From Candidatus Kryptoniota bacterium (GTDB lineage Bacteria > Bacteroidota > Ignavibacteria > Kryptoniales > JAKASW01), in NCBI GenBank assembly GCA_036567965.1, contig DATCTN010000002.1:1-64000 (forward strand): a DNA stretch of 64,000 nucleotides, read 5' to 3'. Within the stretch, counting starts at the first letter, position 1, and each line of letters opens with the position of its first letter. This document shows, piece by piece, positions 4,795-26,574 of the stretch. Made by a program: the position numbers and the translations under genes. The notes beneath the pieces were generated by a model. It was not told the DNA's origin, ran no database searches, and saw only the letters and a list, made by a program, of their open reading frames with translations.

Positions 4795-5000
4795 GCCCTT
4801 GCTCCCTTATACCTCGTTCATGCAGAATGACATTTCACAAGAATATCACACAGAACTATTTAACAACAAGCGTACCGAGAGCGATCAAGAAAAACGACAA
4901 TTTCACCGACAAGATGACGAGAATCAGAACGGATCTGTCCGAATTTGAAGATCATGCGTTCAGTTTCGGACGCTGTAACAACCGGCTTAGATGAAGAACC

Positions 5001-5306
5001 CTACGCGGCATTTACATGGGTATCGCCGAAGCCCGTCGTGCCACGCTGCCTGTACAGGACCTGTATAAATTTCGAGTCTTCTTTCGGCTTGAAGATTTGA
5101 ATCAGCTCCCACGACTTGTCGTAGCTCGCCAATCCCTTCTGAAGCAGCTTGATCTTCTCTTCAACAGTCCATTTTTCATCTTCTGGCTCCCACCGGAACG
5201 CCTCGACTCTGAAGTTGTACTGTCTTTTCTTGCCGTTTATCTTCACCTCAATCTCGGCGATTTGCCGGTCGACAAAATCGGGTAATGGAATACTCACATC
5301 TTTCAT
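5001..5306 (-). CDS. Small conserved-looking protein of unknown function
   Basis: A 101-residue soluble protein without signal peptide or membrane segment, with a strong GGGAGGT ribosome binding site before the ATG. It opens with ISIPLPDF-like residues, then a hydrophilic beta-rich stretch (EIEVKINGKKRQYNFRVE), a helical part, and SYDKSWELIQIF with IQVLYRQR near the end. I do not assign it to a family. It lies between permeases 1 and 2 in the same direction. The 206 bp between it and permease 1 hold an inverted repeat GTCCGAA (4937-4943) / TTCGGAC (4965-4971) with a 21-nt loop and no other signal I can name. Confidence 0.75.
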   Translation of the reverse strand: MKDVSIPLPDFVDRQIAEIEVKINGKKRQYNFRVEAFRWEPEDEKWTVEEKIKLLQKGLASYDKSWELIQIFKPKEDSKFIQVLYRQRGTTGFGDTHVNAA

Positions 5307-5324
5307 TTTACACCTCCCAGTTTT

Positions 5325-5366
5325 CTATTCGCATCTCAAGGATTCAATCCTGCTAAGGCGGGATTT
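5325..5366 (-). repeat. Vestigial permease 3' tail joined to a palindromic repeat
   Basis: Just past the stop of permease 2, minus-strand codons 5348-5325 read I-E-S-L-R-C-E followed by TAG. This is a near copy of the NP-IESLRYE-stop tail shared by the neighbouring permeases. It touches a hairpin TCCTGC-TAAG-GCGGGA (5348-5363), followed by ATTTCG, then the genuine tail of permease 2. The same arrangement occurs at 15328-15367. Confidence 0.6.
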
Positions 5367-5371
5367 CGGCA

Positions 5372-7792: not shown

Positions 7793-7879
7793 AGCTATCT
7801 CCTTTGATATTGGCGAAAGGTGCGCAGAGCTGAGAATATTGCGCGAGGTGTCATTCGAGGTTCGCTCTCTGCGTCCAGC

Positions 7880-10300
7880 TTACTCATATCGCAACGACTC
7901 CACCGGATTTGCCGTCGCTGCCTTAAATCCTTGATAACTGATAGTTAGAAAAACGATAAGCAATCCCACAAGAAAAGTAACCAAGACGGAAATGATATCG
8001 ACATTTATGTGGTAGGCATAATCCCGCAACCAGCTATTTATAAAATAGGTGCTGATGGGCAATGAGATAATGGCCGAGACCAACAGGACCATCACAAATT
8101 CTTTCGCAGAAGACAGGAGAATACTCGTAACCGATGCACCGAGCACTTTTCTTACACCCACTTCCTTTACCCGGCGCTGAATCACAAAAAGTGACATCCC
8201 GAATAAACCGAGACAGGCTATGGAAATTGCAAGGACGGTGAAATACGCAATCATATCGGCGAACTTGTAATCACTCCCGTACATCGCGCTTACCCTGTCG
8301 TCAAAGAATTGGTAATGCGCTTCTTTTCCTCCATCGAATTCTTCAATCTGCCTCTCAATCGCTGGAATGGTCTTCGGTGCATCCTTCGAACTTTTCAGTC
8401 TGACCACTATGTTGTTCTGCCCACGAGTCTGATCCCCGTAGAATACCGCGGGGCCGATCTTCTGGTGCAAGGAAAGGAAATTGAAATCCTTCACGACACC
8501 AATGATTCGGTGTCCCTCGAACAACTGCACTGACGGATCTGTAATTCCGAATTCTTCAATCGCTTCCTGATTCATGATGACGGCATCTTTCGCCTCTTCA
8601 GGCGGCACCTGTCCGAAAGTTTTCCCGTAAATCATTTTCATCCTCAGCGCTTCAAAATAATCGTGGCTTACCCAATCTTCGGTGAACAGCACAAGCATTT
8701 GAGGGTTAGTCAAGTTGGGTGCCTGGCTTGTTACATCCCCAGCGGCTCCAGGGGTTGGAGGAATCCAAGTACCCGCGGCAACAGAGAGTACGTTCGGGAA
8801 AGTTTCTAAATCAGACAGAAGTGTTTGGAATCGGGTCCCATTGTCGGCATCAACGAAACTTGTCTTCCAATTAGAAAACACAACCAAATTTTCAGCTTCA
8901 AATCCCATATCTTTGGTGTGAAGATACCGCATCTGTCTGTATATCGTAATTGAAGTTAAAAGGAGCCCGATGAAAATGACCATCTGAACGCCGATGAGGA
9001 TTCTGCACAGAGTTATCCTGTCGTGTCCCATGTTGAATTTGTTTCTCAAGATTTCAGCCGGATGAAAGCTGGAAAGATGGGATGATAAATAACTTCCTGA
9101 CAAGACTCCTGCTGCGAGGGTGATACCGACATACAGAATTATCGAGTCAATACTGCGATTATAATCAGTCGGTAGTCTCTTTCCGAGCAATGTCGTCAAA
9201 GAGGGCATGAAAAATTCAACGAGTACAAGTGCGATCGGAAGAGATAAAATCGAGACCAGCATTGATTCCACCATTATCTGCTTTGCAATATCGAGTCTCG
9301 AAGCTCCCACAACCTTTCGCATACCGACTTCTTTCGTTCTGATACTTGTTCTTGCGGAGCTTAACGTTACGAAGTTTAGACACGCAATGAGAAGTATCAA
9401 GAGCGCTACAGTCGAGTAGATTTCGACGTCGGCGATATTTCCCTTAGGGATTAGGTATGTATTTACAATCGTTTCCGGCCGAAAGTATAACTCTTTGAGC
9501 GGAACGAGATGGAGCACCAGCGGCCAGGATGGAATGGTTGAATGTTCCCTTGAAAAGGTGACCAGCTTCTTATTGAATTGATCAGCCAAATTCTTATTAG
9601 ATAAAAGTAGATATGTATTGATTACCCCCGGCATCCACGCGTTGAGAATATCTGGATTGCTGGCGTAACCCTTCTGGATCGAACGCTCTGCAAGAAAAAT
9701 GGGAAGTATACAATCTGCCTGAAAGGTCGAAGTCGAAGGGATGTTAGCCATGACTGCTGCTACGGTGAGGTAATATTCTTGCCCGTACCACTTTACATTG
9801 ATTACCTGTCCAACTGCCTCTCCATTGCCAAACATTCTTTTCGCCATTTCGGGGCTTATGACCGCGTAGTTTCGTTCGGCAAATGCTTTTTCAAGATTTC
9901 CAGAAACAACGGGCAGCGTTAAGATCTTAAATATGCCCGAGTCGGCGGAAGCACAGGGAACAAAATCAAAAATCCTTCCTCCACATTTTATGGTGCACGA
10001 ACTAAATCCGCACCTGGCAAACTCTTTGACTTCTGGATATTCAGTTTTCAGGGTCGGGCCCGTTGGGAATGGAACCAAAGGTTGTGTCCATCCCTGGCTC
10101 TTGAAAGTAAAATTCATTGTCAGGAGATTAATCCTGTCCAATTTCTCGTTATATCTGTCGTAGCTCAACTCGTGAACGGAATAAAGCAAGATAATGAAGC
10201 ACGATGCCAAGCCGACCGATAGACCAAAAATGTTTATGAACGAATATGCCTTATTTCTCCAGAGATTTCTGAAAGCAAATTTGAAATAGCTTTTTAGCAC
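7880..10300 (-). CDS. MacB/FtsX-type ABC permease, paralogue 3
   Basis: An 806-residue permease, start GTG at 10300 in an AAGGAGGAGTGTG context; the homologous position in the other copies is an ATG. TM1 lies at about 19-41. The first FtsX bundle carries KEVGMRKVVGAS and the second VKEVGVRKVLGAS. The C-terminus is NPVESLRYE, shared by most members of the string. Compared with paralogues 4 and 6, its first periplasmic domain is richer in Cys (FARCGFSSCTIKCGG near residues 97-111). Those residues could form a disulfide in the periplasm, which is an inference only. The gap to the next gene upstream is 51 bp, consistent with co-transcription. Confidence 0.9.
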   Translation of the reverse strand: MLKSYFKFAFRNLWRNKAYSFINIFGLSVGLASCFIILLYSVHELSYDRYNEKLDRINLLTMNFTFKSQGWTQPLVPFPTGPTLKTEYPEVKEFARCGFSSCTIKCGGRIFDFVPCASADSGIFKILTLPVVSGNLEKAFAERNYAVISPEMAKRMFGNGEAVGQVINVKWYGQEYYLTVAAVMANIPSTSTFQADCILPIFLAERSIQKGYASNPDILNAWMPGVINTYLLLSNKNLADQFNKKLVTFSREHSTIPSWPLVLHLVPLKELYFRPETIVNTYLIPKGNIADVEIYSTVALLILLIACLNFVTLSSARTSIRTKEVGMRKVVGASRLDIAKQIMVESMLVSILSLPIALVLVEFFMPSLTTLLGKRLPTDYNRSIDSIILYVGITLAAGVLSGSYLSSHLSSFHPAEILRNKFNMGHDRITLCRILIGVQMVIFIGLLLTSITIYRQMRYLHTKDMGFEAENLVVFSNWKTSFVDADNGTRFQTLLSDLETFPNVLSVAAGTWIPPTPGAAGDVTSQAPNLTNPQMLVLFTEDWVSHDYFEALRMKMIYGKTFGQVPPEEAKDAVIMNQEAIEEFGITDPSVQLFEGHRIIGVVKDFNFLSLHQKIGPAVFYGDQTRGQNNIVVRLKSSKDAPKTIPAIERQIEEFDGGKEAHYQFFDDRVSAMYGSDYKFADMIAYFTVLAISIACLGLFGMSLFVIQRRVKEVGVRKVLGASVTSILLSSAKEFVMVLLVSAIISLPISTYFINSWLRDYAYHINVDIISVLVTFLVGLLIVFLTISYQGFKAATANPVESLRYE

Positions 10301-10351
10301 ACTCCTCCTTCAATTTTAATTCAGACTCTGCAGATAGATCCCTTGTCCCCG

Positions 10352-12775
10352 TCATTCATACCTCAAGGACTCCACCGGATTTTTCGTCGCAGCTTTGATG
10401 GCGTGTGTACTGACGGTGAGCAATGCAATGATGAACGCCATGATACCCGAAACGATAAAGATCCACAGCGCGATATCCACCCGATAGGCGAAGTCTTGCA
10501 GCCATCTTCTCACCATGAAATAAGCAAGAGGCCACGCGATGACGTTCGCGATCAGTAGCCACTTGGCAAACTCGGACGAGAGAAGCGCGACAACTTCCGT
10601 GACCGTTGCGCCGAGGACCTTGCGTATTCCGATTTCTTTGGTTCTCTGCTCAGTGATAAACGCCGCAAGTCCGAGCAACCCGAGACATGCGATGAAAATC
10701 GCGAGGATGGAGAAAATAGCAGCTATCTTGCTAGTCCTGATGTCGGCCCTGTACAATCGCTCGAGATTCTGATCCAGGAAATTTCCTTCGAACGCCTCGT
10801 TGCCCGCGTATTTTTTCCACGTGGCCTCCAGAAAAGCCATCGTGCGTTCATAGTCGCCGGGAGCGATACGAACAGCTACGAATTTTCCGAAACCGCCCCG
10901 CGGGAACATCCCCATTGCAAGAGGACGGACAACCTGACGTAGCGATTCGTAGTTGAAATCTTTCATAACGCCTACGATCTCGTACTTCGGCGGAGGTTGT
11001 GGTCCGTTGGGAAGTTCCGTGATGTATTTGCCGACAGGATCCTTGATCCCGAATGCATCCACTGCAGCTTCGTTGAGAACTACTGCCATTGAGTCGGATG
11101 GATGATCGACGGAAAGAAACCTCCCTGCAACGAGCTGGATCTGATACGTTTTCGCAAAATCGTAGTCGGAGCGTATTGTACGGAGGCTCCGTGCGTCCTG
11201 TGTTGTTCCTCCCTCGGGCTCGAAGACATTGTCGCCGACCTGATCGCCCGGAATTCCGGTGGAATTTGAAACACTGATTACCGCGGGATTCCCGAGTAGC
11301 TCCTGCTTGAACGACCCAAGTTGTGCCCCGATATCGTCTGTCTTGTTTATGATCACCACCTGTTCCTTGTTGAACCCAAGATTCTTATCCTGAATGAAGT
11401 TGAGTTGATCGTAAATAATAAGAGTGCTTATGAAGAGCACGATCGAAACCACAAACTGAGAGATGACAAGAGTACTTCTCAGAAGGGACTTTCGGCTTCC
11501 TTTCCTTCCATCCGACTTCAGTACGTCGACGGGCAGGAACGACGAGAGATAAAACGCCGGATAACTCCCGGCGAGGAGTCCCACAATGAGCGCGAACAAA
11601 ATGAGCAGCGGTACTGAATAGAAATTGTCGAAGATGCCCAGCGAAAGCTGTTTACCCGAGACGTCATTGAACAGCGGAAGAAGGAGCTCGACAAGCCCAA
11701 CTGCCAGGAACACCGCGATCAGGCTCATCAGTGTCGATTCCGACATGAATTGGTAGATCAGTCTGCCGCGGGTCGAGCCGAGCGTTTTCCTTATGCCTAC
11801 TTCTTTCGCGCGACGCTCCGATCGTGCGGTCGAAAGATTCATGAAGTTTATGCAGGCGATCAGAAGTATCGAGAGTGCGATCGCAGAGAAGACCCACACG
11901 TACGCAATATCGCTGTTTGGTTCGATTTCATAGTCCAGATGTGAGTGAAGGTGGATCCAGGTCAGGGGCTGTAAGTAGAATCCGACTCTATTCCCCGCCG
12001 CTTCAAGCTGCTCGTACGTCGCGCCGGTGGCGGTTTTTAGTTGAGGACCAATGTACTTCTTCAGGTCATCGTTCATTTTCTTTTCGAACTCAACCGGATC
12101 TGTCCCGCTTCGCAATACGGCGTACGTGTAGCAATTATTGCTGAGCCAGAACTGATTGTTGGTCGCGGGATAGCTCACCATTGAACCCAGAAAGTCAAAT
12201 TGGAAATGTGAATTCTGCGGAAACCCGTCAACTACACCGGTGACAATATAGTCTCTTCGCCTGTCGGCGTTGAGAACTTTTCCCATCGGATCTTCGTTGC
12301 CGAAATATTTCTTCGCCATTGCTTGAGTGATGACAACCGTGTTCGGTTGGGTGAGAGAAGTCTTCGGATTCCCCGAGATGAACTTAACCGTAAAGACATC
12401 GAAGAAAGTCGAATCGGCCCAGTAAAATCTTTCTTCGCTGAATGCCTTGTCCTTGTAACGCAGAACCGGGAACCCGAAATTGGTCACCCGCGTCGCGGCG
12501 GTGACCTCTGGAAAATCGCGCAACAGGGTTGGCTCCAGCGGGTCGCAGCTGGCAGCGAGATTAATGTCCTTGTTGTTGAAGAAGGCGTGGAAGTGAATTC
12601 GGTACGTTTGATCCGCATTCACGTTGAACCTGTCGTAACTCAATTCGTCGCGGACAAAGAGCAGAATGGCGATGCAGCACGCGATGCCGACTGCAAGACC
12701 GACAATGTTGATGATAGAATAAGACCTGTATTTCGCAATGTTCCTGAGCGCTACTCGCAAATAATTTTTTATCAT
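10352..12775 (-). CDS. MacB/FtsX-type ABC permease, paralogue 4
   Basis: An 807-residue permease with a GAGGAGG ribosome binding site. Its first 50 residues are almost the same as those of paralogue 6 (both have RNIAKYRSYS, then INIVGLAVGIACCIAI and FVRDELSYDR). The second halves are also close (EIVGV-K-FNY-SL and LAPGD/IAPGD blocks). The two are therefore the youngest pair in the array, although paralogue 5 sits between them. FtsX coupling motifs are KEVGIRKTLGST and KEIGIRKVLGAT; the end is NPVESLRYE. Role as for the other copies: the membrane half of an ABC system that moves or extracts a substrate at the periplasmic side. Confidence 0.9.
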   Translation of the reverse strand: MIKNYLRVALRNIAKYRSYSIINIVGLAVGIACCIAILLFVRDELSYDRFNVNADQTYRIHFHAFFNNKDINLAASCDPLEPTLLRDFPEVTAATRVTNFGFPVLRYKDKAFSEERFYWADSTFFDVFTVKFISGNPKTSLTQPNTVVITQAMAKKYFGNEDPMGKVLNADRRRDYIVTGVVDGFPQNSHFQFDFLGSMVSYPATNNQFWLSNNCYTYAVLRSGTDPVEFEKKMNDDLKKYIGPQLKTATGATYEQLEAAGNRVGFYLQPLTWIHLHSHLDYEIEPNSDIAYVWVFSAIALSILLIACINFMNLSTARSERRAKEVGIRKTLGSTRGRLIYQFMSESTLMSLIAVFLAVGLVELLLPLFNDVSGKQLSLGIFDNFYSVPLLILFALIVGLLAGSYPAFYLSSFLPVDVLKSDGRKGSRKSLLRSTLVISQFVVSIVLFISTLIIYDQLNFIQDKNLGFNKEQVVIINKTDDIGAQLGSFKQELLGNPAVISVSNSTGIPGDQVGDNVFEPEGGTTQDARSLRTIRSDYDFAKTYQIQLVAGRFLSVDHPSDSMAVVLNEAAVDAFGIKDPVGKYITELPNGPQPPPKYEIVGVMKDFNYESLRQVVRPLAMGMFPRGGFGKFVAVRIAPGDYERTMAFLEATWKKYAGNEAFEGNFLDQNLERLYRADIRTSKIAAIFSILAIFIACLGLLGLAAFITEQRTKEIGIRKVLGATVTEVVALLSSEFAKWLLIANVIAWPLAYFMVRRWLQDFAYRVDIALWIFIVSGIMAFIIALLTVSTHAIKAATKNPVESLRYE

Positions 12776-12852
12776 GTGCTACTCCTCCTCATTTATACTT
12801 GTCGATATCCAACTATTTATACTGACTCATCCCCGCTGGCTGCAAATTGACT

Positions 12853-15234
12853 TCATTCATATCTCAAAGATTCTATAGGATTTGCCATCTCCGCTTTGAT
12901 CGCCTGAACACCCACCGTCAAGAGAGCGACGATAAATGCAAAACCACCTGCGATTATAAACGTCCACCAGCTTATTGGGACTCTGTAGGCGAACTCCTGA
13001 AGCCACTTGCTCATGAAGTACCACGCTATCGGAATCGCAACGATATTTGACAGAACAACCCATGCCATGAACTTCTTCGAAAGAGTGAACACCACATTCG
13101 ACGCAGAGGCACCCAAAACTTTGCGGATACCTACTTCTTTAGTCCTCTGCTCCGTAGAAATAGACGCAAGGCCAAACAATCCAAGACAGGCAATCATTAT
13201 CGAAACAAACGAGAAGTACTGGAAGATGGTGCGCATCCGCATTTCGGAAGAATATTGTTTGTTCACGGAATCATTGTAGAAATAGTAATCGAGCGGGACA
13301 CCAGGCATCTCTGCGTGCCATATCGTTTCGGTTGAGGAAATTACACCCTGTGGATTTCCAGGCTTGATCCGAACAGACATGATCTGGTAACGGCTGTCCT
13401 GCTGATTGCTATCAGGAATGGTAAAAACCAGAGGTTCGATAGCCGTATGAAAAGAAGCAAAATGAAAGTCCTTGACCACGCCCACAATCCTGCCCCGCTT
13501 CCCCCACAAACCCATTTCTTTGTTCAGCGGAGAACTTAGTCCCATTGTCTTCACAGCTGCTTCGTTAATTACGAATGCGCTTGTCCGGTCAGTCGGGTAG
13601 TCCTTTGAAAAAAATCTTCCCTGAACCATCTCGAATTTATAAGTGGCAGCCAGATTAAAGTCAGAGTGGAGCACCCAAAAATGCACCTGTTCATTCGCCG
13701 GCTCGCCTTCCCAATAAACGCCCTCGGTTCTCGTTAGTGAAGTGCTAACGGGTTCAGAACGTGACACAGTTATGACTTGTGGTTTTGATTCCAATTCATT
13801 TTTCATTGACTCAAATTTCTTATTCGCGTCAGCCGTCAGTCGAATGCATATCAAATTCTCTTTGTCGAAGCCGAGGTTAGTGTTCATCACAAAAGACAAC
13901 TGATTGGAAACCACGATCGCGCACAGGATCATGGCAATGGAGGCTGCAAATTGAAAAATGACAAGGCCTGATCCCGTGAACAGACCACCCGGCTTGAACG
14001 TCAAGCTTTTTCGCAGGATCTGGATGGGACTGAATGAAGACAGCAACATGGCGGGATAGAATCCCGACGCGAGACCTGTGCCGATTACGACTGCGATTGA
14101 GAGGATCATGAAGGATGTATCCAGGTACCTGATCATCAAGCTTTTTCCAGACAAGGCATTGAATTCTGGGAGGAATAACTCGACGAAGAGAATTGCTAAT
14201 ATGAACGCGATGCAAGAAACGATCAGACTTTCTCCCAGGAACTGAACCATCAGCCTTTTCCTGCTTGCTCCAATCGTCTTCTTGACGGCTATCTCCTTCC
14301 TCCTTTTCAGAGACAGAGCCGTCGATAAATTCATATAGTTGATACTTGCGATCAAAAGAATGACTACAGCTATAGCGATGAATATCCGGACATACTTAAT
14401 GTCTCCTGTTCCCTGAAGGAATTTGATATTGCCGCTGAACAAATGGACTTTTGTAAGCGGAAGAAGCGAATAGCTCAGATTTTCCGTGTTCTGGTTCGGG
14501 AAGTTTCTTATCTCGCATTGCCTGATTTTCGACGACAGGCCTTGAATATCGATATTCCCTTCGGTCTCTATGTATGTATGAAAGGATTGATCATACCACG
14601 TGTCAAAATTGATCCCGATTGACTTAAACCAAGCTGCTGGTAAAATGATATGAGACCTGATCTGCGATTCCAACGGCATATCTTCCAGGATACCACTCAC
14701 CTTTGTTAAAGATTTGCCACCGAAGCCTGAGACGTTGAGCGATTTACCGACAGCATTTTCAGATCCGAAGTATTTTCTCGCTGTCTCTTCGTCTATCACA
14801 ATCGAGTTCGGATCGGAAAGCACAGTGGATGGATTACCCTCCTTGAGCTTCAAAGAGAAAAGATCGAAGAAATTGGAGCTCGCGAACAGCACATTTTCAT
14901 CGAAGCCGGTGTTGCCATTTTGGATCAAAAACTTAAAAGTCGCAGGCAACTGCATGAAGCTTGTCGATTTGTTGATCTCCGGAAATTCTTCCTTCAAAGC
15001 TGGCGCAAGCATTCGGGATGTAACCGCCGTCATTCCGCCGCGATCGCCGCGAAGCACAAGATAGATATTATTTGAATCTCTGAAGAACTTATCGTAACTC
15101 AGTTCGTCTTGCGCCCACAGAAGGATTAATATGGTACACGCCATTCCCGCCGCCAGTCCTGCAATATTGATTAGCGAAAAGACCTTGTGCCGGGAAAGAT
15201 TTCTAAACGCGATCTTGAAATAATTCTTCAACAT
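12853..15234 (-). CDS. MacB/FtsX-type ABC permease, paralogue 5
   Basis: A 793-residue permease. The start is placed at the ATG at 15234 (MLKNYFKIAFRN), preceded by GGAGC, because all paralogues begin M-(I/L)-(K/R)-x-Y. An in-frame upstream start at 15267 would add 11 unrelated residues. First FtsX bundle: KEIAVKKTIGAS, an unusual reading of the coupling motif (AVKK where the others have GVRK or GMRK). Second: KEVGIRKVLGAS. It ends NPIESLRYE. It lies between the near-identical paralogues 4 and 6, so the array did not grow by simple adjacent duplication. Confidence 0.9.
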   Translation of the reverse strand: MLKNYFKIAFRNLSRHKVFSLINIAGLAAGMACTILILLWAQDELSYDKFFRDSNNIYLVLRGDRGGMTAVTSRMLAPALKEEFPEINKSTSFMQLPATFKFLIQNGNTGFDENVLFASSNFFDLFSLKLKEGNPSTVLSDPNSIVIDEETARKYFGSENAVGKSLNVSGFGGKSLTKVSGILEDMPLESQIRSHIILPAAWFKSIGINFDTWYDQSFHTYIETEGNIDIQGLSSKIRQCEIRNFPNQNTENLSYSLLPLTKVHLFSGNIKFLQGTGDIKYVRIFIAIAVVILLIASINYMNLSTALSLKRRKEIAVKKTIGASRKRLMVQFLGESLIVSCIAFILAILFVELFLPEFNALSGKSLMIRYLDTSFMILSIAVVIGTGLASGFYPAMLLSSFSPIQILRKSLTFKPGGLFTGSGLVIFQFAASIAMILCAIVVSNQLSFVMNTNLGFDKENLICIRLTADANKKFESMKNELESKPQVITVSRSEPVSTSLTRTEGVYWEGEPANEQVHFWVLHSDFNLAATYKFEMVQGRFFSKDYPTDRTSAFVINEAAVKTMGLSSPLNKEMGLWGKRGRIVGVVKDFHFASFHTAIEPLVFTIPDSNQQDSRYQIMSVRIKPGNPQGVISSTETIWHAEMPGVPLDYYFYNDSVNKQYSSEMRMRTIFQYFSFVSIMIACLGLFGLASISTEQRTKEVGIRKVLGASASNVVFTLSKKFMAWVVLSNIVAIPIAWYFMSKWLQEFAYRVPISWWTFIIAGGFAFIVALLTVGVQAIKAEMANPIESLRYE

Positions 15235-15251
15235 ACCCTTGCTCCAGTTTT

Positions 15252-15322
15252 CCTTTGCATGGCGCAAAGGGCAGAGCGCGCAGCGTGTTGGTTGCGCTTT
15301 GCTCCATGCTCTGTGCGTCTCG
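15252..15322. repeat. GC-rich repeat words shared with 21000-21440
   Basis: The gap between permeases 5 and 6 contains GGCGCAAAGGGCAGAGCGCGC and, further on, GCGCTTTGC...TGCTCTGTGCGTCTC. Very similar words (GCGCTTTGCGCC...TGCGCTCTGCGTCTC) follow the S23-family gene near 21408-21441. This suggests a short intergenic repeat family. Confidence 0.35.
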
Positions 15323-15327
15323 CGAAT

Positions 15328-15367
15328 TTATTCATAGCTCAAGGACTCCATCCCGCGAAGGCGGGAT
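15328..15367 (-). repeat. Vestigial permease 3' tail joined to a palindromic repeat
   Basis: Minus-strand codons 15348-15328 read E-S-L-S-Y-E-stop. The DNA (ATTCATAGCTCAAGGACTCCA) is nearly identical to the true 3' end of permease 4 (ATTCATACCTCAAGGACTCCA). Immediately before it on the minus strand is a perfect hairpin ATCCCGC-GAAG-GCGGGAT on the plus strand (15350-15367), and then the real tail of permease 6. The arrangement matches 5325-5366. Confidence 0.65.
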
Positions 15368-15374
15368 TTCGAGT

Positions 15375-17804
15375 TTACTCATATCGTAAACTCTCAACCG
15401 GATTTGCCGTCGCGGCTTTGATCGCATGTGAACTAACGGTGAGCAATGCGATAATCAACGCCAAACCTCCTGACGCAACGAAAATCCAAACACTCACGTC
15501 AGTCCTGTAAGCAAAGTTTTTCAGCCAATTGTTCATAACATAGTAGGCAAGAGGCCATGCGACCACGTTCGCGATCAGTACCCATATCACGAATTCCTTG
15601 GAAAGGAGTGCCACTATCTCCCCAACCGAAGCACCCAATACCTTCCGGATCCCAATTTCCTTCGTTCGCCGCTCGGTGACAAATGCCGCCAGTCCCAGAA
15701 GGCCCAGACATGCGATGAAGATCGCCAGGACTGAAAATGCCCCGGCTATCTCACTGGTTCTCCGATCTGCTGCATAGAGTTTCTGAAGGTTATCATCAAG
15801 GAAGTTGCAGTTGAATTCTTCATCTCCCGCATACTTCTTCCAGACATTTTCAATGAAAGAGATTGTACTCAAATGATCCCCCGGTGCCAGACGGGCTGTA
15901 ACGAATTGTCCGATGAACCCTCGGTTCGGGAAGAGGCGAATGGCCAGAGGACGAATCGCTTCGTGAAGCGATCTGTAGTTGAAATTTTTCACCACTCCCA
16001 CTATCTCAAATTTTAGTTCAGATCCTGCACGGCCCGCGCCCGGGAAAACGAGATGTTTGCCGACGATCCCTTTTGCATTGAAGCTCTTTTCAACCTCTTC
16101 GTTGACAACCACGGCAGCACTATCCGAAGGATGCTCTTTCGAGAAAAACCTTCCGTCGGCTATCCCTAACTTATATGTTTTTGCAAAATCATAATCGCAG
16201 AACATTTGCTGGACGTCTTCATATTGGTTCTCGGATGCGCCTTCAAGCCGGCACGCATTGTCACCGCCCTGGTTCCCGGGAATCGCGTTTGAATTGGTAA
16301 GATTTACGATGTCCCTATTTGTTCTCAACTCATCCTCGAACGATTGGAGCTGACCGGAAAGATCGTTTGTCCTGCTTACTACGATGGTCTCTTCTTTGTC
16401 GAATCCGAGATTTCTCGTCTGGACATACCTCAGTTGCGCGAAGATAATGAAAGTGCCCACGAACAGGGCAATTGAGATCGCAAATTGGAAAATCACCAGT
16501 CCACTTCTAAGGAATGATTTCCTTCCTCCTTTCCTGGTGTCGGATCTAAGAACATCGATGGGGTGGAACGACGACAGGTAGAAGGCGGGATAGCTTCCTG
16601 CAACGATCCCAACCACGACAGCAAAGCAGACAAGAACTGGAATTGATAATGGATTGGTGAACAGATTCAGGCTCATCGTTTTGTTGGCGATTTGGTTGAA
16701 AAAAGGAAGCAGGAGCTCGACTATACCGACTGCCAAAACAACGGCAATAATGCTCATCAGAATCGACTCAGACATGAACTGTCCAACGAGATATGGTCGG
16801 GTCGATCCCAACGTTTTCCTAACTCCCACCTCTTTCGCTCGCTTATCAGACCGTGCCGTCGAGAGGTTGACGAAGTTTATGCATGCGATCAGCAATATCG
16901 CGATGGCTATTGTGGAAAATATGTAAACGTATGTGATGTCGCCATTCGCCTCTATCTCATAATCGAGATGCGAGTTGAGATGTATCGAGGTAAGAGGCTG
17001 CAGCACGAATCCATACTTGTTCCCAGCCACCCTGAACTGTTCAAGAGAAAAACCGGTTATTGCCTTCAACTGCGGACTGCCATATTTGATAACCTCCTCA
17101 TCCAACTTTTTTTGAAATTGAACAAGGTTTACTCCCTTTTGGAGCAGAAGATACGTGTAATAGTTGTTGCTCAGCCATGTCGGATTTCTGCTGTCCTGCA
17201 ATGTTGTGAGCGAAACCATGAAATCCGGATGTAAATGTGAATTTTGAGGGATGTCTTTGATAACACCGGTTACCACAAAGTTATCCTGTTTCCCCGTATT
17301 CAGGATCTTGCCAACCGCGCCCTCATTACCGAAATACTTATGCGCCATGGATTCGGTGATCACAACTGTGTTCGGCTGAGTGAGAGCCGTTTTCGAATTT
17401 CCCGCGACGAAGGGAAACGTGAATATGTCGAACACCGTCGAGTCTGCTCCAAAGAACCTTTCTTCAATGAATGTTTTGTTTTCATATCGGACAACAGTCG
17501 GACCGCTCATAATCAAGCGAGTGTACCCAACGACTTCCGGCAGATCGTGATAAACTGCCGGTCCCATCGCTGCAGGAGACAATGCCATATTCATATCATG
17601 TCCGTTTACCCGGCCGAGAAGCCGTGGCCGATATATCCGGTCCGCAAATTCGTTGTACCTGTCGTAACTCAACTCGTCGCGAACGAAAAGTAGAATAGCA
17701 ATGCAGCACGCGATGCCGACCGCGAGCCCGACTATATTTATGAGCGAATAGGATCTGTATTTGGCGATGTTCCTTAGTGCAACTCGGATATAATTTCTGA
17801 TCAT
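15375..17804 (-). CDS. MacB/FtsX-type ABC permease, paralogue 6
   Basis: An 809-residue permease with a GAGGAGG ribosome binding site and the standard layout: TM1, periplasmic domain, FtsX bundle (KEVGVRKTLGST), second periplasmic domain, FtsX bundle (KEIGIRKVLGAS), end NPVESLRYE. It is the closest relative of paralogue 4 over its whole length. The periplasmic cores differ enough that both copies could be selected for separate partners. The gap to paralogue 7 is 55 bp. The 3' flank carries the vestigial tail and palindrome described separately. Confidence 0.9.
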   Translation of the reverse strand: MIRNYIRVALRNIAKYRSYSLINIVGLAVGIACCIAILLFVRDELSYDRYNEFADRIYRPRLLGRVNGHDMNMALSPAAMGPAVYHDLPEVVGYTRLIMSGPTVVRYENKTFIEERFFGADSTVFDIFTFPFVAGNSKTALTQPNTVVITESMAHKYFGNEGAVGKILNTGKQDNFVVTGVIKDIPQNSHLHPDFMVSLTTLQDSRNPTWLSNNYYTYLLLQKGVNLVQFQKKLDEEVIKYGSPQLKAITGFSLEQFRVAGNKYGFVLQPLTSIHLNSHLDYEIEANGDITYVYIFSTIAIAILLIACINFVNLSTARSDKRAKEVGVRKTLGSTRPYLVGQFMSESILMSIIAVVLAVGIVELLLPFFNQIANKTMSLNLFTNPLSIPVLVCFAVVVGIVAGSYPAFYLSSFHPIDVLRSDTRKGGRKSFLRSGLVIFQFAISIALFVGTFIIFAQLRYVQTRNLGFDKEETIVVSRTNDLSGQLQSFEDELRTNRDIVNLTNSNAIPGNQGGDNACRLEGASENQYEDVQQMFCDYDFAKTYKLGIADGRFFSKEHPSDSAAVVVNEEVEKSFNAKGIVGKHLVFPGAGRAGSELKFEIVGVVKNFNYRSLHEAIRPLAIRLFPNRGFIGQFVTARLAPGDHLSTISFIENVWKKYAGDEEFNCNFLDDNLQKLYAADRRTSEIAGAFSVLAIFIACLGLLGLAAFVTERRTKEIGIRKVLGASVGEIVALLSKEFVIWVLIANVVAWPLAYYVMNNWLKNFAYRTDVSVWIFVASGGLALIIALLTVSSHAIKAATANPVESLRYE

Positions 17805-17859
17805 GTCCTTCTCCTCCTCACCTCAAGCTGCTGATTCAATTGGTGCGCGTCTTATCAAT

Positions 17860-20256
17860 TCATTCATACCTTAGGCTTCTTGCCGGATCAGTCCGGGCTG
17901 CCTTGATTGCCTGCAGACTGATCGTAAGTGCGGCAATTAATAATGTCAGCACCATGGCAAACACGAACACTACCGGTCCAACATCAGTCCGATACGCGAA
18001 TCCTTCGAGCCATTTCGATATGAGATAGTACGCCAGAGGCCAGGCGATTAAATTCGATATCAGAACCCATTTGAGAAAATCTTTTGAAAGGAGGAGCGCA
18101 ATGTTGCGAAGTCCGGCTCCCAACACCTTCCTAACGCCGATTTCCTTCGTCCTCACTTCTACAGTGTATGCCACAAGTCCGAAAAGACCCATGCATGCCA
18201 CCACGATGGATAGAGAAGCGAAGATTGAGAAGAGGCTTCCCGTCTTTTGATCCGATTGGTAGAGATTATTGTATGCTTGATCCAGAAACGAGTAGCTGAA
18301 ATCTTTTCCGGGTAGTATCGTCTTCCATCTCCCTTCGAGCATCGGTAAGATCGTGCCGACGCTCACTGCGTTCATCTTGAGCGCTATGTTGAAGTACCTC
18401 GCCGGGTTGATGTAGAGAAACATCGGCTCGATCTTGTTGTGGAATGAGGAGAGATGGAAATCCCGGATCACACCGATGACCTTGGCGAGCCGTTGAGTAT
18501 TGTTCCCTCCTGGTATGTAGACTTCAGCGCCAATTGGATCTTTGAGATCGAGATCCCTCACTGCCGTCTCATTCAATATGATCGCATTCGTGCTGTCGGA
18601 GACAAACTTCTCTGAAAAGTTTCTCCCTTTGATCAATTCAAGTCCGAGAGTCTGCACATAATCATAGTCGACCCCATCGGCCTGGAACATCACGAAGTCC
18701 GTCCCGGTTTTTCCCTTCAACTGAACGCTTTGCGTTTCTTTGTTGGCGATACCGGGGAGACTATAGCTCCCCGAAACATCGATCACGCCAGGAATTGAAA
18801 GAAAGGCCTCTTTCACCACAGAATATTTTGCCGCCGCGTTCTTGTCGGAAATTGGATAATCAACTACGAGTACGTTCTCCTTGTTGAACCCAAGATTCGA
18901 GTTGCGCATGAAATTAAGCTGCCTGTAGATCGCCATCGTGCCGATAATGAGGATGGTTGTAACTGCAAATTGAGTCGTGACCAGACCTTTCCTCAGTGCC
19001 GCCCCCGATGACCCGGAAGTATTCTGACCTTTCAGCGATTCAACAGGCTTGTACTTTGACAAGAACAGAGCGGGATAAATTCCCGCAACGAGTCCGACAA
19101 ACAGCATTGTCGAAAACAAAACAATAATGAAGTTGAGACTGAGAACGGGGGAATTTGAGACACTCATCCCGAAGTAGTCGTAAAGAACCGGATAGACCGC
19201 TTCGTACACTATCAGGCTCAACAAAAGTGCGAGCATCGAGACGAAGAGCGACTCGCCGAAGAACTGAAGAACGAGACTGCTTCTATTCGCTCCAAAAGTC
19301 TTTCGCAATCCCACCTCCTTCGATCGGCGGAGAGAGCGGGCAGTCGACAGGTTGATGAAATTCAGGCACGCGATCAATAAGAGGAGAACGGCGACTGATG
19401 AAAGGAGGTACACGGTCGTGATATTTCCGGTAGGCGCGAGTTCCCCCATCATGTCGGACTTGAAGTAGACATCTGAAATAGGAATAAGCCGGAAGTGCAT
19501 CATGGACGCCATCAGCTTGTTTGTATTCTTAAGGTAAATCTTCTCAAGTTCCGATTTCACATTTTCAAGAGACGCGGCGTCATTCAGATAGAGATATGTG
19601 AAATCCTGACCCCACTGCAGCCACGGCAGGGGAGGGCTCTGGATTTCCAACGCCCGCGAGTATGGAGCTATAAGTTCGCACCTTATCATAGTGTTTGCCG
19701 GTACATTTCGCATGACACCTGAGACGACGAAGTCGTATTTCTTATCGTACGTGAGTCTTCTTCCAATCACGTCAGTGCTACCGAAGTATTTGCGGGCGAG
19801 ATTTTCAGAAATGACTATCGAGGAGGGATCATTCAGGGCAGTGCTGCTGTTGCCTGCCATGAGCGGAAATGTGAAGACACTGAAAACGTTCGAATCGGAA
19901 AAAAAGAAATTGCTCTCTTTGTATTCCCTCTCGTTGGCTGTTATGACGGCATTTCCATCGTTTCTGAATCTCACAGATGCCTTGACATCAGGCAGTTCCG
20001 TCGCAGCTGCCGGACCAAGCGCAGGAAAAGCGCCCGCCAGCTTGATCGTCGAAGTACCGCTTCCAAACTCGATCGATACACGATAGATGTGTGACCTGTT
20101 CTCATGCATCGATTCATAACTCAGCTGGTTGGCGACGTAGTAGAGAATCAGGAGACTCCCTGCCATCCCGACGGCGAGTCCGACGATATTTATGAATGAG
20201 AAGACTCTGTTCTTCAAAAGGTTCCTGACCGCGACCCTCAAATAGTTCCTAAGCAT
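17860..20256 (-). CDS. MacB/FtsX-type ABC permease, paralogue 7
   Basis: A 798-residue permease, the first of the seven in transcription order and the one next to the ATPase genes, 69 bp downstream of ATPase 1. The ribosome binding site is AGGAG. TM1 is near residues 19-40. First FtsX bundle: KEVGLRKTFGAN. Second: KEIGVRKVLGAG. It ends DPARSLRYE. Position suggests that it could be the original partner of the ATPase and adaptor, with the others added later, but the sequence alone does not prove this. Confidence 0.9.
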   Translation of the reverse strand: MLRNYLRVAVRNLLKNRVFSFINIVGLAVGMAGSLLILYYVANQLSYESMHENRSHIYRVSIEFGSGTSTIKLAGAFPALGPAAATELPDVKASVRFRNDGNAVITANEREYKESNFFFSDSNVFSVFTFPLMAGNSSTALNDPSSIVISENLARKYFGSTDVIGRRLTYDKKYDFVVSGVMRNVPANTMIRCELIAPYSRALEIQSPPLPWLQWGQDFTYLYLNDAASLENVKSELEKIYLKNTNKLMASMMHFRLIPISDVYFKSDMMGELAPTGNITTVYLLSSVAVLLLLIACLNFINLSTARSLRRSKEVGLRKTFGANRSSLVLQFFGESLFVSMLALLLSLIVYEAVYPVLYDYFGMSVSNSPVLSLNFIIVLFSTMLFVGLVAGIYPALFLSKYKPVESLKGQNTSGSSGAALRKGLVTTQFAVTTILIIGTMAIYRQLNFMRNSNLGFNKENVLVVDYPISDKNAAAKYSVVKEAFLSIPGVIDVSGSYSLPGIANKETQSVQLKGKTGTDFVMFQADGVDYDYVQTLGLELIKGRNFSEKFVSDSTNAIILNETAVRDLDLKDPIGAEVYIPGGNNTQRLAKVIGVIRDFHLSSFHNKIEPMFLYINPARYFNIALKMNAVSVGTILPMLEGRWKTILPGKDFSYSFLDQAYNNLYQSDQKTGSLFSIFASLSIVVACMGLFGLVAYTVEVRTKEIGVRKVLGAGLRNIALLLSKDFLKWVLISNLIAWPLAYYLISKWLEGFAYRTDVGPVVFVFAMVLTLLIAALTISLQAIKAARTDPARSLRYE

Positions 20257-21388: not shown

Positions 21389-21440
21389 TTTGAACCCCTT
21401 TCTTAATGCGCTTTGCGCCTCGCCCCCTGCGCTCTGCGTC

Positions 21441-22193: not shown

Positions 22194-22222
22194 TGATTCC
22201 TCTCCCGTTTATTTGGCTGTTT

Positions 22223-23533
22223 TCAGTTCTTTATAAGCAACTCGTCCACATCGCCGAAGTTATCGTAAGAAGAGGTCACTACCCTGTCTCCAGGTGAAAG
22301 CCCCTTCAACACTTCAAAGTAATCCGGGTTCTGCCGCCCGAGGCTGATGGACCTTTTCACGGCTTCACCGCCGGACTTATTCAGCACGAAGACCCACTGG
22401 CCGCCCGTCTTCTGGTAGAATCCGCCTCGAGGAAGGAGGAGCGCCTTGGTTCTTTCACTCAATTGTAATCTGATCTGAAGAGTCTGCCCTCTCCTTATGC
22501 CGCCCGGAACGTCGCTGTCGAAATTCATGTCGACCTGGAATTTTCCGCCTGTCACTTCGGCGTAGACTTTGGTTACCACAAGACCATAATTCTTTCCGTC
22601 GATTTCGACGGTAGCATGCAGGCCTTGTGCAACACGTGCGATATAAAACTCATCTATATCCGCTCGCACCTTGAAGCCATCGAGCGCATCAATCTGTCCC
22701 ATCTGGTCGCCCGGCGATTTGGCCTGGCCCGTTTCCGCGTTGAGCGCAGTCAACTGCCCGCTGATCGGTGCCCTGACTGTAAGGTTGTCGATTTCTTCGC
22801 GGATCAGTTCGAGATTCTTCTGCAGCCGTTCAATCGACTCGCCGATCTGCTGAAGCTGGTTCTGCTTTAGAACCGAGTCTCTCGAGAAATTCTGGTAGGC
22901 GAGCTTCTGCTGGTCGACCGCGAGATTGAAACTGTTCTCCGCCTGCTCGAAGTCGGCCGCGGAAATCAGTTTCTTGTTCCACAGTGCCTTCTGTCGATCA
23001 TATGTCTGCCCCGCGCTTATGAGGTTGTAGTTAGCCGCCACAAGAGTGTTCTGAAGCGAATTACTGTTCTGCTCAATCTGAAGCCGTGTGTTCCGAGCAT
23101 CGTTAATTTGCTGGTAGGTAAATGTCTCCTGCTGCAAAGCGTTTAACTGAACGTTCGTGTTCGAAAGCTGAAGTATCCTGTCCCCCTTCTTCAGAATCGC
23201 ACCTTCTTCCACGAATTTCTTCTCGACAGTTCCTCCGAGGATCGCGTCAAGATAGAAAGTGGTTCGGGGAAGTATTGTGCCCGTCACTGGTATGAATTCC
23301 TGAAAGTCTCCGACTTCAACAGTCGATATTGTTATCTTATCCGATTCGACATTCAGTTTCGAACCGGTATCAGCGAGAATGAGAATGATCAAAGTGAGAA
23401 AAATAATTCCGCCGCCGATATACAACCAAAACCGTCTAGTTCTGTAAAATGGTTTCTTCTCGATTCGTCGATCCACTTGATATTCCTTTTGCACTAATTC
23501 GAGTACGTCGAAATCGGAAAGTTGGTTCCGCAT
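22223..23533 (-). CDS. HlyD/MacA-type periplasmic adaptor protein
   Basis: A 436-residue membrane-fusion protein. A short cytoplasmic N-terminus (about 30 residues) is followed by one TM anchor (about 32-53). A lipoyl-like half-motif follows (VPVTGTILPRTTFYLDAILGGTVEKKF). A long coiled-coil hairpin (about 140-260, rich in Gln/Asn/Leu) and the second lipoyl half (LTVRAPISGQLTALNAETGQ) come next, then beta-barrel and C-terminal domains. Such adaptors bridge a MacB-like permease to an outer-membrane channel; no TolC-like gene lies in this window. It is the first gene of the leftward operon. A weak ribosome binding site and a sigma-54-type promoter candidate lie upstream. Confidence 0.92.
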   Translation of the reverse strand: MRNQLSDFDVLELVQKEYQVDRRIEKKPFYRTRRFWLYIGGGIIFLTLIILILADTGSKLNVESDKITISTVEVGDFQEFIPVTGTILPRTTFYLDAILGGTVEKKFVEEGAILKKGDRILQLSNTNVQLNALQQETFTYQQINDARNTRLQIEQNSNSLQNTLVAANYNLISAGQTYDRQKALWNKKLISAADFEQAENSFNLAVDQQKLAYQNFSRDSVLKQNQLQQIGESIERLQKNLELIREEIDNLTVRAPISGQLTALNAETGQAKSPGDQMGQIDALDGFKVRADIDEFYIARVAQGLHATVEIDGKNYGLVVTKVYAEVTGGKFQVDMNFDSDVPGGIRRGQTLQIRLQLSERTKALLLPRGGFYQKTGGQWVFVLNKSGGEAVKRSISLGRQNPDYFEVLKGLSPGDRVVTSSYDNFGDVDELLIKN

Positions 23534-23591
23534 GATACATCAAGTACAATTGGTATGCCTTTTAACATCAAGATCACCATCGGAAGTTGAT

Positions 23592-23607
23592 TGCGCCGAT
23601 GAGGCCA
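23592..23607 (-). promoter_or_regulatory. Sigma-54-type (-24/-12) promoter candidate for the adaptor/ABC operon
   Basis: The minus strand reads TGGCCTCATCGGCGCA, with invariant GG and GC spaced by exactly 10 bp. The match to TGGCACG-N4-TTGCA is otherwise moderate (8 of 12). It would start RNA near 23581, about 48 nt before the adaptor ATG. Confidence 0.45.
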
Positions 23608-23696
23608 TTCAATGAAGAATTCCACAGATTTGGGTGAAAGATGAGATCTTGCCTGACTCTATTTGATTATTTTCTGTCCACTTGCCAAGTTCCATT

Positions 23697-23732
23697 TGTC
23701 CGATTACGGACAGTCGTGTCCGGCAGCGGACA
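23697..23732. promoter_or_regulatory. Paired palindromic operator (probable NtrC-type enhancer)
   Basis: Two perfect 16-bp palindromes, TGTCCGATTACGGACA (23697-23712) and TGTCCGGCAGCGGACA (23717-23732), share the form TGTCCG-N4-CGGACA. Their centres are 20 bp apart, close to two helical turns, so both face the same side of DNA. They lie about 90-125 bp upstream of both predicted sigma-54 start sites, the usual enhancer distance. A further TGTCC half-site is at 23675. Binding by the adjacent NtrC-family regulator is inferred from position. Confidence 0.75.
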
Positions 23733-23790
23733 TATGGAGAGCCGACTCTTTCAGGAGAGCCTCCATGAATTCGAGATTGAAAGTCCATTG

Positions 23791-23806
23791 AGGAACGGTA
23801 ATTGCA
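23791..23806 (+). promoter_or_regulatory. Sigma-54-type (-24/-12) promoter for the regulator-kinase operon
   Basis: AGGAACGGTAATTGCA has GG (23792-23793) and GC (23804-23805) spaced by 10 bp and a perfect TTGCA -12 element. The start would be near 23817, 36 nt before the regulator ATG, which makes the regulator autoregulated. Confidence 0.6.
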
Positions 23807-23852
23807 GACCATAAGATGATGGCGGCAAATTGAAAAAGAAGACTTACTGTTC

Positions 23853-25229
23853 ATGGCGTTGAATACCGGGAAAATTCTTGTCGTCGACGACGATGAGGAT
23901 ATTTTATATTCTGCGAGGCTCCTCCTGAAGCGACATTACGCGGATGTGCGGGTCGAAAAGGATCCGAATCAGATTCCTGCCATCTTGATGACGGAACAGT
24001 TTGCCGTCATTCTCCTCGACATGAATTTCACGGGCAATGAAACGCGCGGTCGTGAAGGCTTTCACTGGCTGAATAAAGTCCTGGAATTGGAGCCGTCGGC
24101 TGTGGTTATCATGATAACAGCATTCGGAAATATAGAGATGGCGGTCAGCGCTATCAAACAGGGTGCGACGGATTTCGTGCTGAAGCCATGGCAGAACGAA
24201 AAACTGCTCGCGACGGTGTCAGCAGCGATGAAGCTCAGTGACTCGAAACAGGAGATAGACAGTCTTATCTCTAAGCAAAAGCAATTGAGCCAGGACATCG
24301 ACAGTCAGTTCCATGAGATCATCGGCGTATCGGAGGAGATGCGTTCGGTATTCAACACAATCCAGAAAGTCGCCGTGACGGACGCGAACGTTTTGATCCT
24401 TGGAGAAAACGGAACAGGTAAAGAACTCGTCGCGCGCGCAATTCACAGGCAGTCCGCAAGGAACACAGAGATATTCCTTGGTGTGGACGTGGGCTCGCTC
24501 AGCGAGTCTCTTTTCGAAAGCGAGCTGTTCGGATACGTCAAAGGCGCCTTCACGGACGCGAAGGAGGACAGAGCCGGCCGGTTCGAGGTCGCGTCGGGCG
24601 GCACTCTTTTTCTCGACGAGATCGGAAATCTTTCTCCCAATTTGCAGATGAAGCTTCTGGCGGTCCTTCAAAACCGCAAGGTCACGAGAATCGGGTCAAG
24701 CGCGACAAGAGACATCGACATCAGATTGATCTGCGCGACAAACCTGCCGACGGAGGAGCTCACATCGGAAAAACGTTTCAGGCAAGACTTGCTATACAGA
24801 ATAAACACGGTGGAGATAAACCTCCCTCCACTGAGGAGGCGGACAGTCGACATTCCTCTCCTTGCGGACCACTTTCTCCAAGTTTACTGCAGGAAGTACG
24901 GAAAGCGGTTAAAGACGATTGAAAGCAACGCAAAGGAGAAGCTCCTCGCATATCGATGGCCGGGTAATGTGAGAGAACTGCAGCACACAATCGAGCGGCT
25001 TGTTATCCTTGCGGAGTCTGACAATTTGGGACCGGACGATTTCAATTTCTCATCGCAGGACAGCAAAGAGAGCGGGCTCGAAATAAACAGTTTTCATCTT
25101 GAAGACGCAGAAAGGATCCTCATCATGAAAGCAGTGAGCAAACACGGCGGCAACCTTTCGAAGGCCGCGAAGGAACTCGGCCTCACCAGGGCATCGCTTT
25201 ATCGAAGGATCGAAAAATATGGTCTTTAG
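23853..25229 (+). CDS. NtrC-family sigma-54-dependent response regulator
   Basis: A 458-residue regulator in three parts. The receiver domain (about 5-120) has an acidic triad VDDDED, phospho-acceptor Asp56 in ILLDMN, and the conserved Thr and Lys (MITAFG, VLKPW). The AAA+ domain (about 150-385) has Walker A GENGTGKE, Walker B GGTLFLDEIG and an arginine-finger region. A Fis-type helix-turn-helix (NLSKAAKELGLTRASLYRRI) lies at the end. The sigma-54-contacting loop reads GAFTDA instead of the canonical GAFTGA, a natural variant. The stop overlaps the kinase gene by 11 bp. By context it controls the divergent ABC operon and itself. Confidence 0.95.
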   Translation: MALNTGKILVVDDDEDILYSARLLLKRHYADVRVEKDPNQIPAILMTEQFAVILLDMNFTGNETRGREGFHWLNKVLELEPSAVVIMITAFGNIEMAVSAIKQGATDFVLKPWQNEKLLATVSAAMKLSDSKQEIDSLISKQKQLSQDIDSQFHEIIGVSEEMRSVFNTIQKVAVTDANVLILGENGTGKELVARAIHRQSARNTEIFLGVDVGSLSESLFESELFGYVKGAFTDAKEDRAGRFEVASGGTLFLDEIGNLSPNLQMKLLAVLQNRKVTRIGSSATRDIDIRLICATNLPTEELTSEKRFRQDLLYRINTVEINLPPLRRRTVDIPLLADHFLQVYCRKYGKRLKTIESNAKEKLLAYRWPGNVRELQHTIERLVILAESDNLGPDDFNFSSQDSKESGLEINSFHLEDAERILIMKAVSKHGGNLSKAAKELGLTRASLYRRIEKYGL

Positions 25230-26574
25230 AAGATTTAGCGTCATAGTCGTTTTCAGGACAGTCCTCCTGTGCCTTTCCGTGTTCGTGCTGATCTATCTCG
25301 TGACAAGGACGAGCTTCATAGCAACGCCCTTTATTGTTTCGCTGCTCATACTGGCACAATTATACTCACTGATGCATTATGTTCAGAAGACGAACAGGGA
25401 GATCGCGAGGTTCTTTGAATCGATCAAGTATTCCGATTTCTCACAGACGTTCAGGAGTACTGTAAAAGGTTCATCATTCGAGGAACTGAGCAGCGCGTTT
25501 TCCGATGTGATCGACGAATTCAGGAAAGCGCGATCGGAGAAGGAAGAACATTATCGTTACCTACAGATAGTAGTTCAGCACGTCGGGATAGGTTTGATGG
25601 CATATACGCAGGATGGGAAGGTGGAGCTCGTGAATACCGCGGCGAAACGCCTGCTGAAGCTGAACGGAATCAGCAATATATCCGAGCTCGACGCGGTAAG
25701 TCCGCTGCTTGCCGGTACACTCCGCGGAATCAAGGCGGGCGACAAAGTCCTGGTGAAGATCGCGGGGGATAATGAACTTTCGCAGCTGTCGATATATGCG
25801 GCTGAATTCAAGATGCGGGAGAAACATTACACTCTCGTGTCGCTGACGAATATCCAGAGCGAATTGGAAGAGCGTGAAATGGAGGCGTGGCAGAATCTTA
25901 TAAGAGTTCTCACACACGAAATCATGAATTCCGTCACGCCGATAGTGTCGCTTTCTTCAACCGCGAGTTCGCTTCTCGTGGACTCAGTTGGCGAGGGGCG
26001 CAGCGGGCCCGAGGTGGATGGCGAACGGCTCAGGGATGTGAAGGGTGCGCTCGATACGATCGCGAAGCGAAGCGAGGGATTGCTCCATTTTGTGGACGAT
26101 TACAGGAACTTGACCCGCATCCCGATCCCGAATTTCCAGATAATTAAAGTGCGGGATTTATTTGAAAGGATACAGAAACTATTTGCGGACAGATTCCAGA
26201 TACGCAAAATAGAATTCGCTTATTCTGTCGATCCGTTGGATCTCGAATTGACAGCCGATCCCGACCTGATCGAACAGGTATTGATTAATCTGATCCTGAA
26301 TTCACTTTCCGCACTCACTGCCACAACAGCTCCCACAATCCGGTTGAGCGGAAAGATCGACAGCCGTGGAGCGGTCCTCGTTCAGGTCATGGACAACGGG
26401 CACGGAATTGCGGAAGACCTCCAGGAAAAAATATTCATACCATTCTTTACGACCAGGAAGGAAGGGTCGGGCATCGGCTTGAGCTTGTCACGACAGATAA
26501 TGCGGGCTCACCGCGGGAGCATAACGCTCAGGTCGGACCCACAACGCGAAACCGTTTTCACGCTTAAGTTCTAG
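25219..26574 (+). CDS. Membrane sensor histidine kinase, partner of the NtrC regulator
   Basis: A 451-residue kinase. Two adjacent TM helices (about 8-52) have almost no periplasmic loop, so the signal is probably sensed in the membrane or cytoplasm. A PAS-like region follows (about 110-210, VGIGLMAYTQDGKVELVNTAA). The dimerisation motif LTHEIMNSVTPI carries the phospho-His (near residue 233). The HATPase domain has N-box NLILNSLSAL, G1 DNGHGIAED, F-box FIPFFTT and G2 GSGIGLSLSRQI. It overlaps the end of the regulator gene, so the two are translationally coupled. It is the NtrY-like soluble-input type. The stimulus is not visible from sequence. Confidence 0.95.
   Translation: MVFRRFSVIVVFRTVLLCLSVFVLIYLVTRTSFIATPFIVSLLILAQLYSLMHYVQKTNREIARFFESIKYSDFSQTFRSTVKGSSFEELSSAFSDVIDEFRKARSEKEEHYRYLQIVVQHVGIGLMAYTQDGKVELVNTAAKRLLKLNGISNISELDAVSPLLAGTLRGIKAGDKVLVKIAGDNELSQLSIYAAEFKMREKHYTLVSLTNIQSELEEREMEAWQNLIRVLTHEIMNSVTPIVSLSSTASSLLVDSVGEGRSGPEVDGERLRDVKGALDTIAKRSEGLLHFVDDYRNLTRIPIPNFQIIKVRDLFERIQKLFADRFQIRKIEFAYSVDPLDLELTADPDLIEQVLINLILNSLSALTATTAPTIRLSGKIDSRGAVLVQVMDNGHGIAEDLQEKIFIPFFTTRKEGSGIGLSLSRQIMRAHRGSITLRSDPQRETVFTLKF

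Follow-up and report, generated by a model that had tools for sequence, protein, structure and literature searches.

The divergent locus and its palindromes

The window, i.e. the whole 64,000-nt stretch analysed (Candidatus Kryptoniota contig DATCTN010000002.1), contains a 21-kb minus-strand run of transporter genes (2392-23533; HlyD, two ABC ATPases and seven MacB/FtsX permeases) that diverges from a regulator gene and a kinase gene on the plus strand. The first-pass annotation had described these neighbours in the same way, as a Fis-HTH NtrC-family regulator on one side and a 21-kb ABC export gene run on the other, and our analysis agrees with that description. The features of the locus are as follows:

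2392..20256, minus strand: seven MacB_PCD/FtsX duplicated (ADOP-like) permeases, from profile matches
20326-21015 and 21441-22193, minus strand: two MacB/DarD-type ABC ATPases, from profile matches
22223..23533, minus strand: HlyD/MFP adaptor, start likely GTG 23476 rather than ATG 23533
23545..23560, minus strand: conserved sigma-54-type promoter predicted for the HlyD/MacB operon, AGGCATACCAATTGTA (GG-N10-GT), from 14-way alignment A1
23592..23607, minus strand: GG-N10-GC element of the first-pass annotation, TGGCCTCATCGGCGCA, in an insertion of ~54 nt found only in this genome
23697..23712, no strand: palindrome 1 of the putative paired enhancer, TGTCCGATTACGGACA, exact and kept in orthologues
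23717..23732, no strand: palindrome 2 of the putative paired enhancer, TGTCCGGCAGCGGACA, centre 20 bp from that of palindrome 1
23791..23806, plus strand: candidate sigma-54-type promoter of the regulator gene, AGGAACGGTAATTGCA, score 11.6, also in locus L151
23853..25229, plus strand: NtrC-family response regulator with receiver (D56), sigma-54 AAA+ domain with GAFTDA loop and Fis-type HTH
25219..26574, plus strand: histidine kinase following the regulator; two hydrophobic segments near the N-terminus, hardly any extracytoplasmic loop

The regulator has the domains of a receiver-type sigma-54 bEBP (PF00072, PF00158 and PF02954, all above the Pfam cut-offs), and the genome contains a sigma-54 gene (PF04552 match, E 1.2e-52). 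The sigma-54-contact loop reads GAFTDA in the regulator and in 77 of its 92 orthologues, GSFTDA in 11 and GAFTGA in one; the G-to-D change was seen also in the regulator's own paralogues. In the paralogue clade at 55% identity the loop was GAFTGA or GSFTGA, as against GAFTDA or GSFTDA in nearly all of the 92 orthologues. The kinase probably senses within the membrane or via a partner, because few residues separate its two N-terminal hydrophobic segments.

The seven permeases are non-identical proteins of ~800 aa each, and only two ATPases are encoded in the same run. No minus-strand terminator-like sites were detected in the gaps between the transporter genes (scan of 4700-24000), a result that is consistent with a single operon without proving one, and we infer that all seven permeases would be expressed from one promoter. 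Homology to MacB-type and Dar exporters suggests that membrane-active or amphipathic compounds, or envelope stress, may be the substrate or signal.

The first-pass annotation had drawn attention to two 16-bp palindromes with centres 20 bp apart in the intergenic region, and both proved to be perfect and exactly where it had placed them. It had also proposed a genome-wide search for TGTCCG-N4-CGGACA; an exact search of the 4.15-Mb genome returned these two copies (23697-23732) and none elsewhere. Near-matches with up to three mismatches were at chance level in the window (32 observed vs 28 expected), leaving the perfect adjacent pair as the one feature above background there. The single site TGTNCG-N4-CGNACA was rejected as a genome-wide regulon finder, since its matches were at background level in 12 genomes and the pair alone was informative.

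Conservation of the pair and its association with transporter genes

Orthologues of the regulator (58-76% identity) were found in Ignavibacteria, Bacteroidota, KSB1, Aminicenantes, Zixibacteria and Acidobacteriota, and in many of the orthologous loci the order MacB-ABC-HlyD / regulator-kinase was retained. The first-pass annotation had made its reading depend on conservation of the palindromes in orthologous intergenic regions, and they are indeed conserved. Counting as a site any match to at least 10 of the 12 positions of TGTYCG-N4-CGRACA, we found 104 sites in 90 distinct regulator-upstream regions (from Ignavibacteria, Bacteroidota, KSB1, Aminicenantes and Acidobacteriota) compared with 3-9 when these regions were dinucleotide-shuffled (20 shuffles), and 19 pairs of sites 16-25 bp apart compared with none in the shuffles; some of the loci share ancestry, and these site and locus counts are not counts of independent events. 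Nearly all of the pairs had a spacing of 20-22 bp (20 bp in genus relatives, 20-22 bp elsewhere), and many orthologue regions carried one good palindrome with a degenerate partner.

The palindromes might instead be chance repeats or a structural element (a hairpin or terminator), given that the AT-rich spacer between the divergent genes might contain repeats by accident. We regard this as extremely improbable: both sites match at 12/12 positions and are the sole exact ones in 4.15 Mb, the orthologues show strong enrichment over shuffles and conservation across phyla, and the pair lies upstream of both candidate promoters and is therefore not expected to be transcribed.

Across genomes, when scored with a degenerate paired pattern, the pair was present in 15 of the 19 genomes with a regulator orthologue (>=60% identity) and in 0 of the 81 without one (Fisher p 1.5e-14). 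The sole member of the genus that lacks a regulator orthologue (G001) lacks the pair too. A pair match in G109 fell within an ORF and was considered a chance hit.

The pair remains with the transporter genes even when the regulator is elsewhere. It is still directly upstream of HlyD in loci where the regulator lies 12 kb (L146, G004), 6 kb (L147, G007) or 2 kb (L160, G071) away from it, and a palindrome matching at 11 or 12 of 12 positions was found in 56 of 58 HlyD upstream regions. Following the suggestion in the first-pass annotation that the MacB/HlyD operons of relatives be searched, we found extra pairs just upstream of distant MacB genes in three loci (L164, L203 and L204). In a further locus (L202:4157-4700) the pair adjoins a short vestige of MacB (~90 residues aligned at 54% identity), where the operator seems to have outlived its gene.

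Candidate promoters on the two sides of the pair

In the 14-way alignment of the HlyD leader (A1) strong conservation was seen for the palindrome pair, for a GGCA...TTG element and at the translation start. The first-pass annotation had placed outward-facing GG-N10-GC strings on both sides of the pair (23592-23607, minus strand; 23791-23806, plus strand), and both are literally present. However, the string that it had taken as the HlyD-side promoter lies inside the ~54-nt stretch, which has no counterpart in any aligned orthologue. With an approximate sigma-54 matrix (maximum 18.6), used to score both GG-N10-GC elements, TGGCCTCATCGGCGCA scored 6.4, a level reached by ~0.7 sites per kb of strand in the window, and a leave-one-out matrix built from the orthologues gave -5.6 bits for 23607-23592 vs 20.2 bits for 23560-23545. 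The element at 23592-23607 is therefore probably not the promoter.

More generally, a sigma-54 score of at least 6 was found downstream of the palindrome on the coding strand in 48 of 56 HlyD regions, vs 4 on the opposite strand, while the same test on the regulator side gave 17 vs 5 of 68 regions. The -12 element was often TTGT or TTGG rather than TTGC, with GC in 13 of 31 distinct sites, and for this reason the use of sigma-54 at these promoters is likely rather than proven. The idea that the lax -12 element goes with the GAFTDA loop found no support, because paralogues with GAFTGA or GSFTGA also carry non-GC -12 elements.

The HlyD start is probably GTG 23476, which has AAAGGAA ahead of it and is the codon that aligns across orthologues; in the orthologues a (T/G)TG-GA(C/T) codon pair lies at the aligned HlyD start, together with a Shine-Dalgarno sequence. 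ATG 23533 was disfavoured on the basis of this alignment and because the conserved promoter would leave it no leader. We infer that the HlyD transcript would start near 23534 and have a leader of ~58 nt.

The distance from the centre of the pair to the -12 element was 111-114 bp in 11 of 14 closely related HlyD loci; in the other three it was 91, 146 and 167 bp, i.e. -2.1, +3.1 and +5.1 turns of 10.5 bp from 113. Across lineages, distances below 200 bp had a best period of 10.4 bp (equalled in 0 of 4000 jittered controls), and the phasing weakened when repeated distances were collapsed to one (p 0.0055 for a period of 10.5 bp, 0.049 when any period of 8-14 was allowed). We read this phasing as selection that would keep activator and polymerase on one face of the DNA, with shared ancestry as a caveat. 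The arrangement has the geometry of an NtrC-type paired enhancer: both dyads face the same side of the helix and lie upstream of a -24/-12 promoter, and this layout is conserved in other species.

On the regulator side, AGGAACGGTAATTGCA reached 11.6 of the maximum 18.6, and sites of this quality occur at <0.05 per kb in the window. The first-pass annotation had proposed that the regulator autoregulates and activates the permease array through one shared enhancer. In this reading the element would work in both directions, driving the regulator and kinase genes from 23791-23806 as well as the transporter genes, and we give it about an even chance. Its first half draws support from the element itself and from the counterpart of that element in L151, TGGAACGGAAGTTGCA, which scores 14.4; in the Cyclobacteriaceae without an adjoining HlyD, moreover, the regulator has its own palindrome pair followed by TGGCAY-type elements. 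On the other hand, a comparable regulator-side sigma-54 promoter was missing in the other genus-level orthologues, the pair follows HlyD and not the regulator, and the regulator-side distance from pair to -12 (~90 bp) is about half a turn off the HlyD-side phase. Autoregulation in this genome is thus plausible and as open to acceptance as to doubt, but it is not the conserved function of the pair. In other lineages autoregulation probably occurs, because the Cyclobacteriaceae regulator has its own pair and TGGCAY elements. The divergent neighbour in these Cyclobacteriaceae loci (L132, L084, L101, L085 and L105) was, by eye, a short FKBP-type peptidyl-prolyl isomerase-like ORF and not HlyD.

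The putative activator and comparison with known systems

A second clade of regulators occurs in the same genomes. Its members are 55-57% identical to the regulator (recognition helix TRTALYRR vs TRaSLYRR) and adjoin their own ABC-MacB operon, and they are accompanied by a related but different operator pair, TGTATCRAA-N2-CGNACA, spaced by 22-23 bp in 8 of 9 loci, with a single matching site in L166. GGCAY-N5-TTTG elements lie 68-70 bp from the centre of the paralogue pair, placing the pair about 69 bp ahead of the predicted -24/-12 promoter of the paralogues' ABC-MacB operon. In this paralogous system (L166-L174) the regulator diverges from ABC-MacB and another sigma-54 activator. A remote homologue (L165; 41% identity) has a similar recognition helix, LTRQALYRRLEKYGL, and here the original pair fronts the homologue's own transporter operon. 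The operator therefore changes along with the regulator clade, the strongest argument we have that the regulator is the binder, and the adjacent NtrC-family regulator very probably binds the pair.

The palindromes might alternatively be the operator of some other DNA-binding protein, a repressor or global regulator that happens to act here, as many families use palindromic operators. We consider this improbable in view of the strict co-occurrence of the pair with the regulator orthologue, the changed operator in the paralogous clade, the position of the pair upstream of sigma-54-type elements at preferred distances, and the presence of the pair in the transporter operon of the L165 homologue.

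The reading that we prefer, with a probability of about 0.86, is that the pair is a paired UAS for the adjacent NtrC-family regulator, which would activate the HlyD-ABC-MacB operon from the putative sigma-54 promoter at 23560-23545. The proposal in the first-pass annotation that the pair is an enhancer-type operator of this regulator and the transporter operon is upheld by the conserved position and sequence, the co-occurrence with the regulator and the different operator of the paralogous regulators. In the proposed mechanism the partner kinase would phosphorylate the regulator; each of two regulator dimers would occupy one palindrome, both on one side of the helix at a spacing of two turns, and together they would nucleate an AAA+ ring; and the ring would reach sigma-54 polymerase at 23560-23545 by DNA looping, turning on the operon. 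In this genome the pair may in addition activate transcription of the regulator gene from the promoter at 23791-23806.

More broadly, we lean towards a widespread, unnamed two-component system (a sigma-54 activator and a kinase without a sensor loop). In Ignavibacteria, Bacteroidota, KSB1, Aminicenantes and Acidobacteriota it would control arrays of MacB/HlyD exporters via one conserved paired operator, and the enhancer-promoter distance would be kept in whole helical turns over 73-168 bp. At least one paralogous copy would have acquired an operator of its own that serves a second exporter operon. With this operator one could predict regulons in Bacteroidota that can be cultured; the paralogue pair and its altered operator are in effect a natural specificity-switch experiment for Fis-type HTHs.

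Control of this exporter class, which is abundant in these phyla, has so far been only hinted at by a genome-wide survey, the relevant passages of which predict sigma-54-type promoters before FtsX-type permeases (COG0577) in Bacteroidia and others (PMC12316311). The permease class and the sigma factor are the same as here; those passages name no activator, enhancer operator or geometry, and our analysis supplies a candidate operator, promoter and activator. The mechanism class (paired UAS, bEBP and sigma-54) is ordinary; the literature searched contained nothing specific on this operator, regulon or two-component system.

The enhancers of NtrC-type activators (NtrC, ZraR, NorR) are paired dyads with centres whole helical turns apart, 70-170 bp upstream of the -24/-12 element. 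The present system resembles them in its paired dyads in whole turns, its -24/-12 promoter and its activator with receiver, AAA+ domain and Fis-type HTH, but differs in the operator (TGTHCG-N4-CGDACA), in the target (HlyD-ABC-ADOP exporters), in the loop (GAFTDA in most orthologues rather than GAFTGA) and in the frequent TTGT or TTGG at -12. Among NCBIfam models the regulator matched PrsR/PrsK (TIGR02915, PEP-CTERM response regulator), AtoC and ZraR best, over nearly the full length. It scored far below all curated cut-offs, with 395 bits for TIGR02915 (PrsR) vs an equivalog cut-off of 502.6, and its gene neighbours differ from those of all three.

The transporter genes match the DarC (adaptor), DarD (ATPase) and ADOP/DarB (permease) models, and can be compared with MacAB and the darobactin exporter DarBCD. 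Scores were below the equivalog cut-offs for DarC (206.8 of 450 bits), DarD (271.7 of 375) and DarB (up to 166.7 of 700), and the best ADOP score among the four permeases scored was 334.3 vs a cut-off of 622.3 bits (TIGR03434), although the best matches were full length. Unlike DarBCD, MacAB and ADOP, this locus has seven permeases for two ATPases, and it shows no identified gene for an exported peptide. In detoxification modules of the BceRS-BceAB type a kinase without a sizeable sensor loop likewise adjoins an FtsX-type exporter. Bce response regulators are OmpR-type proteins and not sigma-54 activators, whereas the response regulator here is a sigma-54 activator.
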